Source: Aurantibacillus circumpalustris
Lineage (GTDB): Bacteria; Bacteroidota; Bacteroidia; B-17B0; Aurantibacillaceae
Assembly: GCF_029625215.1 (NCBI RefSeq)
Contig: NZ_CP121197.1
Location: 3,100,001 to 3,164,000, forward strand
DNA: 64,000 nt
Direction: 5' to 3'
A program made the translations under genes and the position numbers. Each line of letters starts with the position of its first letter. Within the stretch, counting starts at the first letter, position 1. The notes under the pieces were generated by a model. The model ran no database searches, was not told where the DNA came from, and was given only the letters and a program-made list of their open reading frames with translations. Positions 2,605 to 42,067 of the stretch are shown piece by piece.

Positions 2605-3588
2605 ATGGAAAATAGAGCTATTAAATCAAATACAAATGATAAAGTCTTCGACAAACTCTGGGCAAACATAAAGCTTAACGAAAAAAAAGAAAAAACAGAG
2701 CATAAGAATCATATCACAGACATCTCATTTTCAGATTTTAGAGAATTTGGAGTAAAGGTGGAATACAAGTCAGAAGCAATTGAGAAATACTTCTTGTTCG
2801 AATTCGAACTAGGAACTAGTTTTCCTAGAACAATATCAGACGAAGAAATTCTAATAGAATTTCTTGAATGGTCTTACTTTAATGAAGATCGCTCTTATGG
2901 TGAATATCTTGAATATCGCAAATCTCCATACATCAGCAAAAAATTATATGATGAAGTATCTGTTTTGTTGGATGTTAAGAATATCGCATTGAACAAATTA
3001 ACTATTGGCACAATTGCCATTTCATTTCTAAAATTTAAATATGAAATGAAACGTTATGAATTCAATAAGAAACTCTTCACTTCAAAGAAAGAAAGCCTCG
3101 AAAAGATAAAGTACTTGGAATTTCTTACACAATTTCAGCAGACAAATTGCAGAATAGACAAAATAAAAATTCAGGCGACAAGTAGTGAAGGTTCATTAGA
3201 TTGTTTATTGCCTCTAGAGATGTTTGAAGCCTATTTAAATAAATTTGAAATAGAGTGTAACGACTCTATAGATATCTATCGACAATGTATAGAATATGAA
3301 TACGTTAATGTACAGCAAAACAAGACAGAAAACTCTTACAAAAACAGACTCATTGGGAATTTTGTTGGGGGCCTTGACTCGATGCTTTTATCAGAATTTA
3401 AAATCACGACTCCAAATCATCGTCACTTCATAATAGGATATCTATTAAGCTATTCAGGTGTAATTTATTCAGAATTGAAAGTGAAGAAAATGATAGATAA
3501 CGAAGAGATTAATTACTCGAATGTAGGGGAATATTTATCAGATAGAGCCAGACAGTATATTCCTAAGATAAAAGATAGTCCACATTAG
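2605..3588 (+). CDS. Hypothetical protein, 327 aa
   Basis: I do not recognise this protein. It is soluble, rich in Glu, Lys, Phe and Tyr, with predicted mixed helix and no signal peptide or membrane segment. It begins 2 nt after the DUF5131 reading frame, so the two are almost certainly co-transcribed and translationally linked. DUF5131 genes often have a three-Cys-motif partner (TcmP) beside them, but I do not see the DGFAGPG-type motif expected of that family, so this is a different partner. Confidence 0.75.
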   Translation: MENRAIKSNTNDKVFDKLWANIKLNEKKEKTEHKNHITDISFSDFREFGVKVEYKSEAIEKYFLFEFELGTSFPRTISDEEILIEFLEWSYFNEDRSYGEYLEYRKSPYISKKLYDEVSVLLDVKNIALNKLTIGTIAISFLKFKYEMKRYEFNKKLFTSKKESLEKIKYLEFLTQFQQTNCRIDKIKIQATSSEGSLDCLLPLEMFEAYLNKFEIECNDSIDIYRQCIEYEYVNVQQNKTENSYKNRLIGNFVGGLDSMLLSEFKITTPNHRHFIIGYLLSYSGVIYSELKVKKMIDNEEINYSNVGEYLSDRARQYIPKIKDSPH

Positions 3589-4052: not shown

Positions 4053-4538
4053 ATGGAAAGTATAACTATACAAAAATCCCTAACTCCAATAAATTGGTGG
4101 CTATATAATAACGAAAAAAGCAAGGTATTGCAACTGTTTCAATGGATTTTCAGAAACCATTACGTAACTAAAATATTTATATTATCTCAGTTAAATATTT
4201 ATCTGAGCTTAAACAAAATATTTTTCATTCAGTCGAAAAAATTAACATTTGAATACGAAAATAAATTAGTTAAAACCATTGCGCATGTCAAAAAAATTTA
4301 TAATTTCGTATACAAGAATATAAAACACGCATTGTTGCAACCTTTTTCTAAAAGATGCGTGTCTTATAAAAAAACAGTGTTACACTTTCCGCCACTTAAA
4401 ATTGGCGGCCACGTATCACTTCACAAATGGGTTAGGCTGCCGCAGTTAAAATTGTGGAGCAAAAATTTCGAACCTGATGGACTAGCATCAGGATACAATA
4501 ACCTAAATCATAAAAAAACAAATGTCAGGAAAACCTGA
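4053..4538 (+). CDS. Doubtful ORF, very basic, 161 aa
   Basis: An open frame with ATG start 27 nt after the previous gene. The composition is unusual: many Lys, Trp, Tyr, Phe and His, almost no Asp/Glu in the second half, and no recognisable domain. From about 4389 onward the DNA contains perfect hairpins that run through the ORF and over its stop codon, which suggests the 3' half is structured non-coding sequence. It may be an accidental frame or a short gene with a spurious C-terminal extension. Confidence 0.25.
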   Translation: MESITIQKSLTPINWWLYNNEKSKVLQLFQWIFRNHYVTKIFILSQLNIYLSLNKIFFIQSKKLTFEYENKLVKTIAHVKKIYNFVYKNIKHALLQPFSKRCVSYKKTVLHFPPLKIGGHVSLHKWVRLPQLKLWSKNFEPDGLASGYNNLNHKKTNVRKT

Positions 4539-4702
4539 CCAGGGGTTGGTATGCTTTAAATCATACCAGGGCGATTCCGAAAAGCCTAAAAAAAGAGTAG
4601 GAGAATTTCGTAAAGTCTAAAGCTTCTTTTTCAAGGCAACTTGAGACTGAATCTAAGAATTAAAAAAAGTGAGAAAAGACTCACGTGGGATATTATTGCC
4701 TT
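4389..4702 (+). other. Hairpin-rich intergenic region
   Basis: Successive perfect stems are visible: CCGCCA/TGGCGG (4389-4408), CCTGATG/CATCAGG (4473-4492), GTCAGG/CCTGAC (4524-4539), TGGTATG/CATACCA (4547-4568). A long-range stem AAGGCAA/TTGCCTT (4633-4639 with 4696-4702) encloses GTGAG/CTCAC (4669-4684). A 9-nt direct repeat TTAAAATTG occurs at 4396 and 4446. The region precedes the two-gene operon at 4742 and ends 40 nt before its start. A structured leader or small RNA is likely; no known class was recognised. Confidence 0.4.
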
Positions 4703-4741
4703 AAAACTAAATAAAATGTATAAACAAATAAACAAAATAAA

Positions 4742-5092
4742 ATGACAACTGAAGAAAGAATACAAGCAATGAACAAGGTAGTTAGGCTGATTGACACACT
4801 AAGTATGCGTACTCTAAGGTTCAACGCTAGAAAAATAATTGAGCCATTCACTCCTGTGCTAATAATAGACCTAGTAAGAATGAATGCAACTCAAAATTTT
4901 CTTAAACCAGGTAGAAAAATTTTAAGTGATGGTAATACCATTGTGACTCTCGAAATATCGAGAAGTGGAGGGAGCCTAAAAAGATACTTAACGGAAGGGT
5001 TGGTTTACAAAATACTGGAGCTAGAAGAAATGGAAGCTGAGAAAAAACCAACAATAAATCAGGAAAATGAATATAGAAACATAAAACCATAA
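4742..5092 (+). CDS. Hypothetical protein, 116 aa
   Basis: Small soluble protein with no family I recognise. Its stop is 2 nt before the next start, so it forms a two-gene operon with the 110-aa gene at 5095. Its C-terminus is Glu-rich. It follows a 200-nt hairpin-rich leader. Confidence 0.65.
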   Translation: MTTEERIQAMNKVVRLIDTLSMRTLRFNARKIIEPFTPVLIIDLVRMNATQNFLKPGRKILSDGNTIVTLEISRSGGSLKRYLTEGLVYKILELEEMEAEKKPTINQENEYRNIKP

Positions 5093-5094
5093 AC

Positions 5095-5427
5095 ATGAAA
5101 AACGATAAAAGCAACAACTTCGAAGAACACTTAATAAACGGAAAATCTTTTCATTGGATTGAGGACAGCGGTGAATCAATAGATTCCTTTATGGAAAAAG
5201 CAACTAAAAGTATTACACCAATTTACAATTACAAATACTTGATAATAGCTGTCATCCATAATAACGATGTAACACATTACGACAAGGCTGATCTTTATGT
5301 GGCTTGCAAAGGGAAATTGGAACTAGCTAATGAATTCATAAGGCTCAGCGAACAAGAGTATTTGTGTAAAGTAGATAAACTTGATATCGCATTGATTCAA
5401 CGCCTAAGAAATACTGAGGACGAATAA
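5095..5427 (+). CDS. Hypothetical protein, 110 aa
   Basis: Unrecognised acidic small protein, second gene of the pair starting at 4742. There is no transmembrane segment. The 173-nt gap that follows contains a perfect hairpin and a tRNA-sized folded element before the next operon. Confidence 0.6.
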   Translation: MKNDKSNNFEEHLINGKSFHWIEDSGESIDSFMEKATKSITPIYNYKYLIIAVIHNNDVTHYDKADLYVACKGKLELANEFIRLSEQEYLCKVDKLDIALIQRLRNTEDE

Positions 5428-5485
5428 AATAAAAAAGTGGCCAATGTAGTACTTCTTTGCTAGTTACAAAGAAGACTCTACTGGA

Positions 5486-5559
5486 TTTAAGTAAGGGTAT
5501 TTCACTAGCACCAACACCCCTTGCGTGCAAAGTGCTGGGTTCAATTCCCAGGCTTAAAC
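5486..5559 (+). ncRNA. tRNA-like element 1 (74 nt)
   Basis: TTTAAGT (5486-5492) pairs with GCTTAAA (5552-5558) as a 7-bp acceptor-like stem with one G-U pair. CTGGG/CCCAG (5535-5539 with 5547-5551) closes a 7-nt TTCAATT loop, which is a canonical T-arm. The total length is that of a tRNA. The middle lacks a normal D-arm and anticodon arm; instead CACT/AGTG and GCAC/GTGC can form a long arm whose loop has CCCC, and the GGG at 5495-5497 could pair with it. A perfect 8-bp hairpin (5452-5474) lies just upstream. It is probably not an aminoacylated tRNA. It closely resembles element 2, including the flank CAAAATAAATAG. Confidence 0.4.
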
Positions 5560-5600
5560 AAAATAAATAGTAAAAAGTGTAATCAAAAAATAAAACAAAA

Positions 5601-6224
5601 ATGAAAAAAGTAAATTTTATAAAGAGTAAAAAAGAGTACCAGGATGCTAGAATAAAAGCTATTAATATGGGACGGAATGACATTATTAAAGAGCAGAACG
5701 CCCTGAGAAATACGTTGCCTGCAATTTTAAAAAATGCAATTTCATTCTCACCACCCACCTTCATAGACCATCAAACCAGTTTCGAAGTCGACATAGAAGT
5801 TGTCAAGTTGATGTTACAAACACTCTGTGAAGAACACGATCTATCTGATTCGCAGTATTTGCAAGATTTTGCGGATAGTAAGCGTGATGTTCCTTTTTTT
5901 GACTTAGTTCAAACAGATGAACTAAGCTATAATCAGATAGCCACTTACCTTGTTTATCATTTCCACAACGCAATGACCTTCCAATTTGAGAAGGTGCAAG
6001 GATACATACCGTTGAGGCAAGGATTAATATGCAATAGCAAATCTGGGGAAGAAATACGTTTAGCTTTATTCTTTTGCTTCATCGCAAATGATGATGATAC
6101 AATCAATTGCCATATTTCTGATCTAAGAAATTTCAATCTTGTTTTCAAAATGGACTTATACTTTTATTCGGTATTTGGAAATATGTGTGAGGAATGGAAC
6201 AGGGACAATGGTTTTATCGCTTAA
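5601..6224 (+). CDS. Hypothetical protein, 207 aa
   Basis: Unrecognised soluble protein with scattered aromatic residues and no signal peptide. It is the first gene of a pair with 6237 (12-nt gap) and starts 41 nt after tRNA-like element 1, so that element would lie in its 5' leader or at an intercistronic processing site. Confidence 0.65.
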   Translation: MKKVNFIKSKKEYQDARIKAINMGRNDIIKEQNALRNTLPAILKNAISFSPPTFIDHQTSFEVDIEVVKLMLQTLCEEHDLSDSQYLQDFADSKRDVPFFDLVQTDELSYNQIATYLVYHFHNAMTFQFEKVQGYIPLRQGLICNSKSGEEIRLALFFCFIANDDDTINCHISDLRNFNLVFKMDLYFYSVFGNMCEEWNRDNGFIA

Positions 6225-6236
6225 AAAATTAAAATT

Positions 6237-6614
6237 ATGAAAAAGGAAAATACGAGAACATATACCCACTGGTCAATGGCAAAAATATTTGCCTCTGCAA
6301 TGGGACTAAAACCAGAAACAAAAGAGTATTGCCAGTATATAAAGGATTATAATTTCAGAAGTGCTAAAAAACTGATAAATGAGTTAAGCATTGTTGACCT
6401 AAAAAATTATGGCAAAAAGTATTTTGACGATAGTCCTGTATTAATAATTGATCTAAGAAAAAATGAATGTAGGATGCAGGTTATGGGGAACAGCCATTTA
6501 ATTAATAATGAATGTTTGATAAGTATAAGTTTAGTATCATACGCAAAAGGCAGCTACAAAGTAGGACTAATTAAATTATTGGAATACCGAATATTTGGAT
6601 TGAAACAGAAATAA
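6237..6614 (+). CDS. Hypothetical protein, 125 aa
   Basis: Unrecognised small basic protein, co-transcribed with the gene ending at 6224. Its segment SPVLIIDLRKNECRM resembles TPVLIIDLVRMNAT in the protein at 4742-5092, hinting that the two may be distant paralogues. The gap after it carries two simple hairpins and tRNA-like element 2. Confidence 0.6.
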   Translation: MKKENTRTYTHWSMAKIFASAMGLKPETKEYCQYIKDYNFRSAKKLINELSIVDLKNYGKKYFDDSPVLIIDLRKNECRMQVMGNSHLINNECLISISLVSYAKGSYKVGLIKLLEYRIFGLKQK

Positions 6615-6697
6615 AGCCTTTAATGAGGTGTCACATGAGATATGTGAACAAGTATTAAAATTAGTGATACTTACTGAATCAGAAACAGCAAATGGGT

Positions 6698-6772
6698 TTT
6701 AGTTAAAGGTTTTTCATTCCACAGAACGCCCCACGTTATAAGGAATGCAGGGTTCGAATCCCTGAACTAAAC
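6698..6772 (+). ncRNA. tRNA-like element 2 (75 nt)
   Basis: TTTAGTT (6698-6704) pairs perfectly with AACTAAA (6765-6771). CAGGG/CCCTG (6748-6752 with 6760-6764) closes the loop TTCGAAT, a canonical T-arm. GTTT/GAAC could form a D-stem, but no proper anticodon arm results. CATTCC/GGAATG (6715-6720 with 6742-6747) is an alternative long arm enclosing AACG/CGTT with a CCCCA loop. The length, the order of parts and the 3' flank CAAATTAAATAG match element 1. Upstream lie TCACAT/ATGTGA and AAGTAT/ATACTT hairpins. The next gene starts 52 nt downstream. Confidence 0.4.
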
Positions 6773-6824
6773 AAATTAAATAGCAGATAATCTGTTAAAT
6801 ACTTAAAAGATTTCAAATTAGATA

Positions 6825-7130
6825 ATGCAGAAATTGGTATTAATAGATCAGGAAGAACTTAACAAACTTATTCAATCTGTAGAAGAATTGAAAAAGCTTG
6901 TTATTGCCAAACCTGTTCCGCCACTTAAGCAAACCAAACTAGACTCCACTATGGAAGAAATAGAAAATTACATTCCTTTGCATTTAGCATGGAAAAAACT
7001 AGGCTGCAAGAAAAGTAAATGGTACGAAAAATATGTCCACTTAATACAGTACAAAGTTTATGACAGAACTGTGTGGGTTTACGCACCATCAATTCTAAAG
7101 TTTTTAAAGGAAGATAACATCAATTCTTAA
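6825..7130 (+). CDS. Helix-turn-helix excisionase-type protein, 101 aa
   Basis: An N-terminal short coiled segment (residues 5-30) is followed by IPLHLAWKKLGCKKSKWYEKY, a winged-HTH of the MerR/excisionase type common in Bacteroidota mobile elements, and a basic wing ending near residue 95. These small proteins usually lie beside integrase genes and control recombination directionality. Here it is the last gene before tRNA-Leu and the repeats at 7265-7289, which fits a role at an attachment site. No integrase is in the window. Confidence 0.65.
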   Translation: MQKLVLIDQEELNKLIQSVEELKKLVIAKPVPPLKQTKLDSTMEEIENYIPLHLAWKKLGCKKSKWYEKYVHLIQYKVYDRTVWVYAPSILKFLKEDNINS

Positions 7131-7155
7131 CCTCAATAAATTTAATAACGATTCT

Positions 7156-7192
7156 GGGCAAAATGTTAAAATGGGTATTTTGCCCTTTTTTT
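7156..7192 (+). terminator. Rho-independent terminator
   Basis: The 9-bp stem GGGCAAAAT/ATTTTGCCC is followed by a T-run. It ends the transcript of the excisionase-type gene at 6825-7130. Confidence 0.8.
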
Positions 7193-7264
7193 CTGCTTTC
7201 CTGTCTGAAAAAATAAAGATTTTATCAACCCCTAAAGCCCCTGATAGTAAGGGTTTGTTGATAA

Positions 7265-7289
7265 GTTACACAAGTGTTACACAACTTGT
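7265..7289. repeat. Direct and inverted repeats near tRNA-Leu, possible recombinase or Xis sites
   Basis: GTTACACAA occurs twice, at 7265-7273 and 7276-7284, an 11-bp period that places both on one helical face. ACAAGT/ACTTGT forms an overlapping inverted repeat (7270-7289). The location between an excisionase-type gene and the 3' end of a tRNA gene suggests arm-type or excisionase binding sites of an integrated element. This is inference from position and spacing only. Confidence 0.35.
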
Positions 7290-7294
7290 ATTAA

Positions 7295-7327
7295 AAAACC
7301 CCTGAAAGCCAAGCTAACAGGGGTTTT
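7295..7327. terminator. Strong hairpin, probable bidirectional terminator
   Basis: A perfect 10-bp stem AAAACCCCTG/CAGGGGTTTT with A- and T-rich flanks. It could terminate tRNA-Leu transcription on the minus strand and read-through from the left on the plus strand. Confidence 0.65.
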
Positions 7328-7342
7328 AAGTGGCACCAAAAG

Positions 7343-7423
7343 TACCCAGGAGGAGACTCGAACTCCCACACCTTGCGGCATACGCACCTCAAGCGTACTT
7401 GTATACCATTCCAACACCTGGGC
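7343..7423 (-). tRNA. tRNA-Leu (GAG)
   Basis: The acceptor stem is GCCCAGG/CCTGGGT. The anticodon stem TACGC/GCGTA encloses TTGAGGT, giving anticodon GAG. There is a short type-II variable arm, and the T-arm loop is TTCGAGT. CCA is not encoded. Its 3' end faces the accessory region at 1-7340, the usual arrangement for an element integrated at a tRNA 3' end. An ORF that overlaps it on the other strand is spurious. Confidence 0.92.
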
Positions 7424-7638
7424 ATGCTATACTTTCCGAAAAAAATCGGAACAAACACTTAAGCTGCTGCAAAGATGCAATTTTTTCGATAAAAACTAAC
7501 CTTGAAATTTCTGATTTTGGGTAATTAATTTTTTCGGAAGTTACATTAAGAGGTCTTAGAAAATTGTGTGAGTACGAAAAACCACCAATGATGAGATTGT
7601 TGTACTTGCTCGTCAGATGTTAGCGCGGGCTTTGATTT

Positions 7639-41941: not shown

Positions 41942-42015
41942 GTCAACGTTAGTTTACTAGTCTAGAACGCCATTCTGATATAATGGAGAATTAGGTGCAA
42001 TTCCTAAACGTGGCT
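41942..42015 (+). ncRNA. tRNA-like cloverleaf (Ile-GAT-like), element 3
   Basis: A full cloverleaf can be drawn. Acceptor GTCA(a)CGT/ACGTGGC is 7 bp with one bulged A and one G-U pair. T8 and A9 are followed by D-stem GTTT/GAAC. Anticodon stem CCATT/AATGG encloses CTGATAT (T33 present, anticodon GAT). The variable loop has 4 nt, and T-stem TTAGG/CCTAA encloses TGCAATT. Departures from a working tRNA are the bulge, no GG in the D-loop and TGC in place of TTC in the T-loop. It is either a decayed tRNA or a tRNA mimic. It ends 52 nt before the KilA-N gene. Confidence 0.45.
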
Positions 42016-42067
42016 TAATTCCTTTACAAAGGTACAAAAAAAATGTAACAATGTAAAAACAAAATAA

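Follow-up and report, generated by a model that had tools for sequence, protein, structure and literature searches.

Two elements, E1 (5486-5559) and E2 (6698-6772), lie within a run of orphan genes in the window, that is, the whole 64,000-nucleotide stretch of DNA that we analysed. Their sequences give good support to a tRNA-like fold made of an acceptor stem and a T-arm, with neither a D-arm nor an anticodon arm. This structure is better supported than what we infer about function. Our tentative reading, placed ahead of its rivals and held at somewhat less than an even chance, is that E1 and E2 are paralogous modules that mimic the top half of a tRNA within an mRNA and would be cut there by RNase P and RNase Z. 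The two elements and their parts are as follows.

5486 to 5559, plus strand: E1, tRNA-like element (sequence, alignment, constrained fold, descriptor scan with shuffles, pair table)
E1 parts: acceptor 5486-5492/5552-5558; D-less linker 5493-5502 (AAGGGTATTT); middle arm 5503-5534; T-arm 5535-5551; C 5559
5560 to 5570, plus strand: conserved 3' flank of E1, AAAATAAATAG (alignment)
6698 to 6772, plus strand: E2, tRNA-like element (free-energy optimum, descriptor scan, pair table)
E2 parts: acceptor 6698-6704/6765-6771; linker 6705-6714 (AAAGGTTTTT); middle arm 6715-6747; T-arm 6748-6764; C 6772
6773 to 6783, plus strand: conserved 3' flank of E2, AAATTAAATAG (alignment)

E1 (74 nt) and E2 (75 nt) can be aligned along about 75 nt and into their common 3' flank. 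They share one plan: a 7-bp acceptor stem leads to a 10-nt GG-containing linker, a middle hairpin, the T-arm, the second acceptor strand and a final C. A preliminary description had already put forward these coordinates and lengths, together with the 7-bp acceptor-like stems, the T-arms, the alignable middles and the common 3' flank, and all are present in the sequence and the alignment. The acceptor stem forms seven of seven pairs in each element, one being a G-T pair in E1; its third pair is T-A in both, and there is no G3-U70. Both T-arms consist of a 5-bp stem with G53-C61 and a 7-nt loop fitting TTCRANY (TTCAATT in E1, TTCGAAT in E2). T-loop positions 54, 55, 56, 58 and 60 and the G53-C61 pair are identical in the alignment, and the four differences between the T-arms fall in one compensated stem pair, R57 and N59; numbered by the tRNA convention, these are presumably sites where tRNAs tolerate change. 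In the tRNA-like fold no nucleotide separates the T-arm from the 3' acceptor strand in either element, a geometry in which the two helices would be expected to stack coaxially. In the same fold the D-stem and D-loop are absent, the linker being 10 nt without a stem. The middle, for which the preliminary description had reported no normal anticodon arm, indeed holds no 5-bp stem with a 7-nt loop and U33. To that account we add that a differently shaped hairpin abutting the T-arm can form in both elements (CACT/AGTG in E1, CATTCC/GGAATG in E2), so that the middle is predicted not to be unstructured; the loop region AAC(A/G)CCCC is common to the two.

Three lines of evidence bear on this fold. 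Firstly, we examined the pairs shared by E1 and E2. All 16 form in both elements: four have changed on both sides, one on one side and 11 not at all. Two of the four lie in the acceptor (pairs 5 and 6), and the T-stem and the middle arm have one each; the compensatory change previously described for the acceptor strands is therefore correct and extends to the T-stem and the middle arm. When nine substitutions were distributed randomly over the 32 paired columns, every pair was preserved in 9 of 200,000 trials, a figure obtained for a structure that was itself partly picked from E1 and E2 and for a single comparison of two copies. Secondly, we scanned the window with a descriptor, composed with E1 and E2 already known, that combines an acceptor of 7/7 pairs, a T-stem of 5/5 (G-T allowed), G53-C61 and a TTCRANY loop. 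It matched E1, E2 and the two true tRNA-Leu genes and missed tRNA-Ile, and in 200 dinucleotide shuffles of the window it gave 0.01 matches on average and 1 at most. The descriptor's added requirement for a hairpin next to the T-arm is not stringent, as both tRNA-Leu genes satisfy it too. Thirdly, we computed folding energies. The free-energy optimum of E2 is the tRNA-like fold itself (-19.0 kcal/mol). For E1 the constrained tRNA-like fold reaches -19.3 kcal/mol against an optimum of -20.9 for a different, long imperfect hairpin (a gap of 1.6), and its T-arm pairs have an ensemble probability of about 0.04. This low value is weak evidence against the fold, because the same program gives the T-arms of the genuine tRNA-Leu genes at most 0.25 and 0.01. 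Folding z-scores for E1 and E2 are -2.1 and -2.6 on the plus strands and -2.5 and -1.9 on the minus strands; the opposite strands are about equally stable, and folding energy alone therefore cannot single out the strand.

As to the tRNA-Ile(GAT) call of the window (41942-42016), its T-loop, TGCAATT, looks odd by eye, and the Rfam tRNA scores reported in the window are 38.9 bits for this call against 50.4 for another; judged by its sequence, this gene may be degenerate or mobile.

Standard tRNA models do not recover the two elements. ARAGORN called neither in its default or mitochondrial mode, and Rfam RF00005 is silent on both, as it is at its gathering score on the genuine tRNA-Leu(GAG) of the window. 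Together with the missing anticodon arm, this bears out the earlier view that E1 and E2 are not ordinary tRNAs. CCA is encoded neither in E1 and E2 nor in either tRNA-Leu gene of the window, so its absence from the elements is no objection. We found no match to RF00023 or any other Rfam family at E1 or E2, and the tmRNA mode of ARAGORN is silent there; their length of about 75 nt leaves no room for a tag reading frame and pseudoknots, and the host carries a full-length tmRNA of its own. A tmRNA derivative was rejected on the missing tag, the missing G3-U70 and the presence of that host tmRNA. A role in translation appears unlikely from the sequences, since G3-U70, the alanine identity pair, and the decoding half are both absent.

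We then searched for relatives. In the organism's own genome, a pattern search and the covariance model R1 found E1 and E2 as the only copies. R1 returned nothing beyond them in the order (87 genomes) and no credible match beyond them in the class or the phylum (395 genomes each), overlapping samples run under stricter filters with which weak matches are lost. The preliminary description had staked its interpretation on further homologues, and across these three samples they are largely absent. What survives of that interpretation is a pair of homologous structures, tRNA-like in form, that compensatory change has maintained; the widespread family does not. Judged by these searches, E1 and E2 are a two-copy family in one genomic island, with no demonstrated widespread family. 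The sole extra R1 match in the class search, L145 (34.9 bits, E 0.006), lies antisense inside a 538-aa ORF and was put down to chance; a protein in this locus, from a same-class genome, seems by eye to carry a type IX sorting tail, which is compatible with a host belonging to Bacteroidota. In the family, the pattern search matched 4 of 87 genomes, including the organism's own, and the four matches in the other three did not look E-like by eye. A strict pattern run over a collection of species genomes gave one match (L144), rejected as an apparent tRNA fragment. Among the matches listed by literature searches on tRNA-like elements of bacterial operons and of mobile DNA from Bacteroidetes, none described such an element, which does not prove that no description exists.

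In viral contigs, the pattern scans picked up tRNAs, pieces of tRNAs and RNAs of unrelated kinds, with no convincing homologue among the matches listed. When R1 was run on pattern-selected phage loci, the best score was 33.5 bits, for an IMG/VR phage locus (L199, 9347-9404), and the rest reached 26.2 at most; L199 was the top of 199 such loci, with E 0.0037 over 99 phage loci, a score to be read knowing that its 3' half is the search pattern that retrieved it and that L145, judged a chance match, scored higher. L199 resembles E1 and E2 in its acceptor (TTAAGT/GCTTAA), GG linker, T-arm and 3' flank; it differs in having no middle arm and in a free-energy optimum of its own that is not the mimic fold. 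By eye, its 5' strand overlaps the end of a short ORF. We regard L199 as a weak, arm-less candidate relative of unproven kinship. A blastn search of phages and plasmids gave short matches only (E at least 0.3), mostly to the 3' parts of phage tRNAs, and a phage TLS match was rejected as a homologue, not being a T-arm. Over 207 loci the descriptor gave 670 matches, 623 in ARAGORN genes and 47 outside; 16 of the latter are E1 and E2 repeated in overlapping loci and 31 are others. Mini forms consisting of an acceptor and a T-arm (for example L287 and L237) gave 37 descriptor matches against a control mean of 26.1 and maximum of 36, none of 200 shuffles reaching 37; we make no claim for them, 25 of the 37 falling within ARAGORN-called genes.

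The phage contigs held two other tRNA-related arrangements. A circularly permuted tRNA gene layout appears in 13 of 23 pattern matches in IMG/VR phage contigs, the 23 being those with at least 90 nt downstream, counted without a shuffled control (loci L028, L031, L040 (two), L045, L052, L054, L061, L068, L079, L082 (two) and L101). The order is an outer 7-nt strand, a TTTCAGCAA-like motif, the T-arm, the 3' acceptor strand and a short loop, followed by the 5' acceptor strand, the D-arm and the complement of the outer strand. In these layouts 6-7 of 7 acceptor positions are paired, as are 7 of 7 in the outer helix, whose sequence varies by locus (AGGTTCT/AGAACCT, AAGATTA/TAATCTT and AGGAAAC/GTTTCCT are examples). 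Rfam, run on 9 of the 11 loci (all except L061 and L079), reported ordinary tRNAs in each and no intron family at the gathering score; literature searches on permuted tRNAs gave no phage report among the matches listed. This layout is possibly more novel than E1 and E2. Another phage contig carries an RNA of 80 nt, closely followed by tRNAs (L221, 3031-3110), that matches the tmRNA family at 74.5 bits over model positions 1-374; nearly the whole tmRNA middle is absent, making it a tag-less mini tmRNA.

We examined the genes around the two elements, which are arranged as follows.

4742 to 5092, plus strand: ORF of 116 aa with a PVLIIDL motif, probable paralogue of 6237-6614 (BLASTP); upstream of E1, with 5095-5427 intervening
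5095 to 5427, plus strand: orphan ORF of 110 aa, ending 58 nt 5' of E1 (no family match in Pfam, PHROGs, NCBIfam or PADLOC)
5601 to 6224, plus strand: orphan ORF of 207 aa, starting 41 nt 3' of E1 (no credible family match)
6237 to 6614, plus strand: ORF of 125 aa, probable PVLIIDL paralogue, ending 83 nt 5' of E2 (BLASTP)
6825 to 7130, plus strand: orphan ORF of 101 aa, starting 52 nt 3' of E2 (weak PADLOC match C3a64)
7342 to 7423, minus strand: ordinary tRNA-Leu(GAG), bordering the orphan-gene region (ARAGORN)

E1 and E2 both lie on the coding strand between flanking ORFs, and the spacing of 41 and 52 nt to the next ORF, as first described, is confirmed. Pfam, PHROGs, NCBIfam and PADLOC gave no credible family match for the ORFs around them; the weak PADLOC match of 6825-7130, C3a64, has E 0.00087 and is of unknown function. 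Searches for protein relatives of 5601-6224 and of 2605-3588 returned none, and one for 6825-7130 gave a single weak, broken match in 295 genomes. Profile A3 gave six weak matches among 395 genomes (E 0.002-0.008 per genome), judged to be chance, and none in viral contigs. A nucleotide search with 4700-7200 in 42 genomes recovered the region itself, and 10 other genomes gave short matches; the match examined further, to 6565-6601 (locus L323), lies in no ORF of 60 aa or longer there. The two PVLIIDL-type ORFs align over 83 residues at 29% identity (28.9 bits in BLASTP; E 4e-6 when only these two are compared) and are the sole pair below E 0.1 among 10 ORFs (E 6e-5). None of 2000 shuffles reached that score, the best giving 22.7 bits. 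Against paralogy, a whole-genome protein search with 4742-5092 returned itself alone at E 1 and did not recover 6237-6614. We take the two ORFs to be probable paralogues on their sequences. The genes downstream of E1 and E2 have no mutual similarity at E 1. With probably paralogous genes upstream of both elements, a unit of gene and RNA was therefore probably duplicated and its RNA retained, a history that the sequences support and do not prove.

Several other features of this region were recorded. The ORF run upstream of E1 contains an Rfam match to DUF805b RNA (4568-4603, plus strand; 37.5 bits, gathering score 35.6). A putatively coding ORF of 161 aa (4053-4538) contains an imperfect palindrome (4176-4217). 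A perfect 19-bp inverted repeat (7661-7679/7839-7857, 159 nt apart) lies just past the tRNA-Leu gene. Restriction-like and other island-type genes lie beyond the upstream edge of the window, their functions assigned mostly by eye. The far end of the island was not located: 7201-7430 has no 16-mer in common with the 50 kb that precede the window.

What RNase P, RNase Z and the CCA-adding enzyme read in a tRNA is its acceptor/T-arm stack, which can be sufficient for recognition by RNase P. We propose that E1 and E2 would be transcribed as parts of a polycistronic mRNA, in which RNase P would take the stack for a pre-tRNA and cut at 5486 and 6698, and RNase Z or exonucleases would cut near 5559 and 6772. 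Such cutting would part the upstream from the downstream cistrons and release a small RNA of about 75 nt. In this RNA a small hairpin would replace the anticodon half, and the G-G-containing linker could dock on the T-loop. Either punctuation or control from a leader fits the position of E1 and E2, since both sit between same-strand ORFs. A scan for sigma-70-type promoters, the type it covered, found 16 against 15.2 expected, which is chance level; co-transcription is therefore not established. If RNase P and RNase Z do excise E1 and E2, they would be a case of tRNA punctuation by a non-decoding mimic in bacterial mRNA, and a short, testable minimal substrate for the two enzymes. RNAs built as a tRNA top half can evade default ARAGORN and Rfam, and more may hide in mobile DNA. 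A broader idea, which we consider rather doubtful, is a new kind of mobile-element RNA, a tRNA top half alone (acceptor, GG linker and T-arm) whose exchangeable middle hairpin would be a tunable module, serving in bacteria as RNase P and RNase Z punctuation of polycistronic mRNA and with arm-less phage forms like L199. In our ranking, processing comes first, as a tentative choice; a protein-bound leader is less probable, a free small RNA improbable, a pair of decayed tRNAs slightly more so, and a DNA-level repeat comes last.

E1 and E2 could instead act in cis as leaders, perhaps with a chance of one in a few, if the uncut tRNA-like fold were bound by an element-encoded protein, for example a PVLIIDL one, or by a host tRNA-binding protein and so controlled the downstream gene. 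Their position 41-52 nt ahead of an ORF suits this, as do the probable PVLIIDL paralogues that accompany both, and an alternative fold in both elements, with linker bases paired to the 3' strand of the T-stem, makes a switch conceivable; however, this fold reaches -15.8 kcal/mol in E2, 3.2 weaker than the tRNA-like fold, and the genes to be controlled show no mutual similarity at E 1.

Free tRNA-like small RNAs acting in trans, which as decoys or pseudo-tRNAs would capture tRNA enzymes or toxins directed at tRNA, are in our view unlikely. Their acceptor and canonical T-arm would lend themselves to this, and in Bacillus cereus a tRNA-like RNA beside a genomic island is reported to have effects outside translation (PMC3399842). 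However, the sigma-70-type scan recognised no promoter of their own, the lack of an anticodon arm makes anticodon nucleases unlikely targets, and Pfam, PHROGs, NCBIfam and PADLOC identified no tRNA-targeting enzyme among the neighbours scanned.

Two ordinary tRNA genes decayed from a former phage-like tRNA set are disfavoured, with a slim chance. The 3' halves of E1 and E2 resemble those of phage tRNAs in weak BLAST matches (best E 5 and 0.3), and ARAGORN at a lowered threshold reports tRNA-Lys for E1 and, beside other calls on the opposite strand, tRNA-Gly for E2. An ordinary tRNA overlooked by ARAGORN was rejected, as these labels surface at lowered thresholds only. Decay would not be expected to keep 16 of 16 pairs with four two-sided compensations, and the two elements are homologous to each other, sharing a D-less linker and the AAC(A/G)CCCC loop with no normal anticodon stem. 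A DNA-level repeat, a mobile or recombination hairpin whose likeness to tRNA is coincidental, is very improbable: the long-hairpin optimum of E1 and the setting in an island amid orphan genes would agree with it, but the genome holds two copies only, both retain the T-loop invariants, and the consensus core sites of an integron attC (GTTRRRY and RYYYAAC) are absent by eye from the ends on both strands, for which an attC site was rejected.

We return to our preferred reading, of top-half mimics processed within an mRNA, to set it beside known systems. The tRNA-like domain of tmRNA (RF00023) has a 7-bp acceptor, a stemless GG-containing D-linker and a T-arm directly on the acceptor. E1 and E2 share the 7-bp acceptor, the GG linker without a D-stem and the T-arm set on the acceptor; in contrast to tmRNA, they measure about 75 nt and have no tag frame, pseudoknots, G3-U70 or Rfam match. 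Punctuation by tRNAs is known from mitochondria and from tRNA-mRNA co-transcripts, where the punctuators are mostly tRNAs competent for translation. E1 and E2 are likewise tRNA-shaped elements between same-strand ORFs, whereas they have no decoding half and their processing is predicted. The Bacillus cereus pseudo-tRNA tRNAOther adjoins a genomic island, has a Trp anticodon, can be poorly lysylated in vitro and is proposed to have a role outside translation (PMC3399842). E1 and E2 differ from tRNAOther in having no normal anticodon arm and in lying within a run of protein genes, and resemble it in being tRNA-like RNAs linked to an island.
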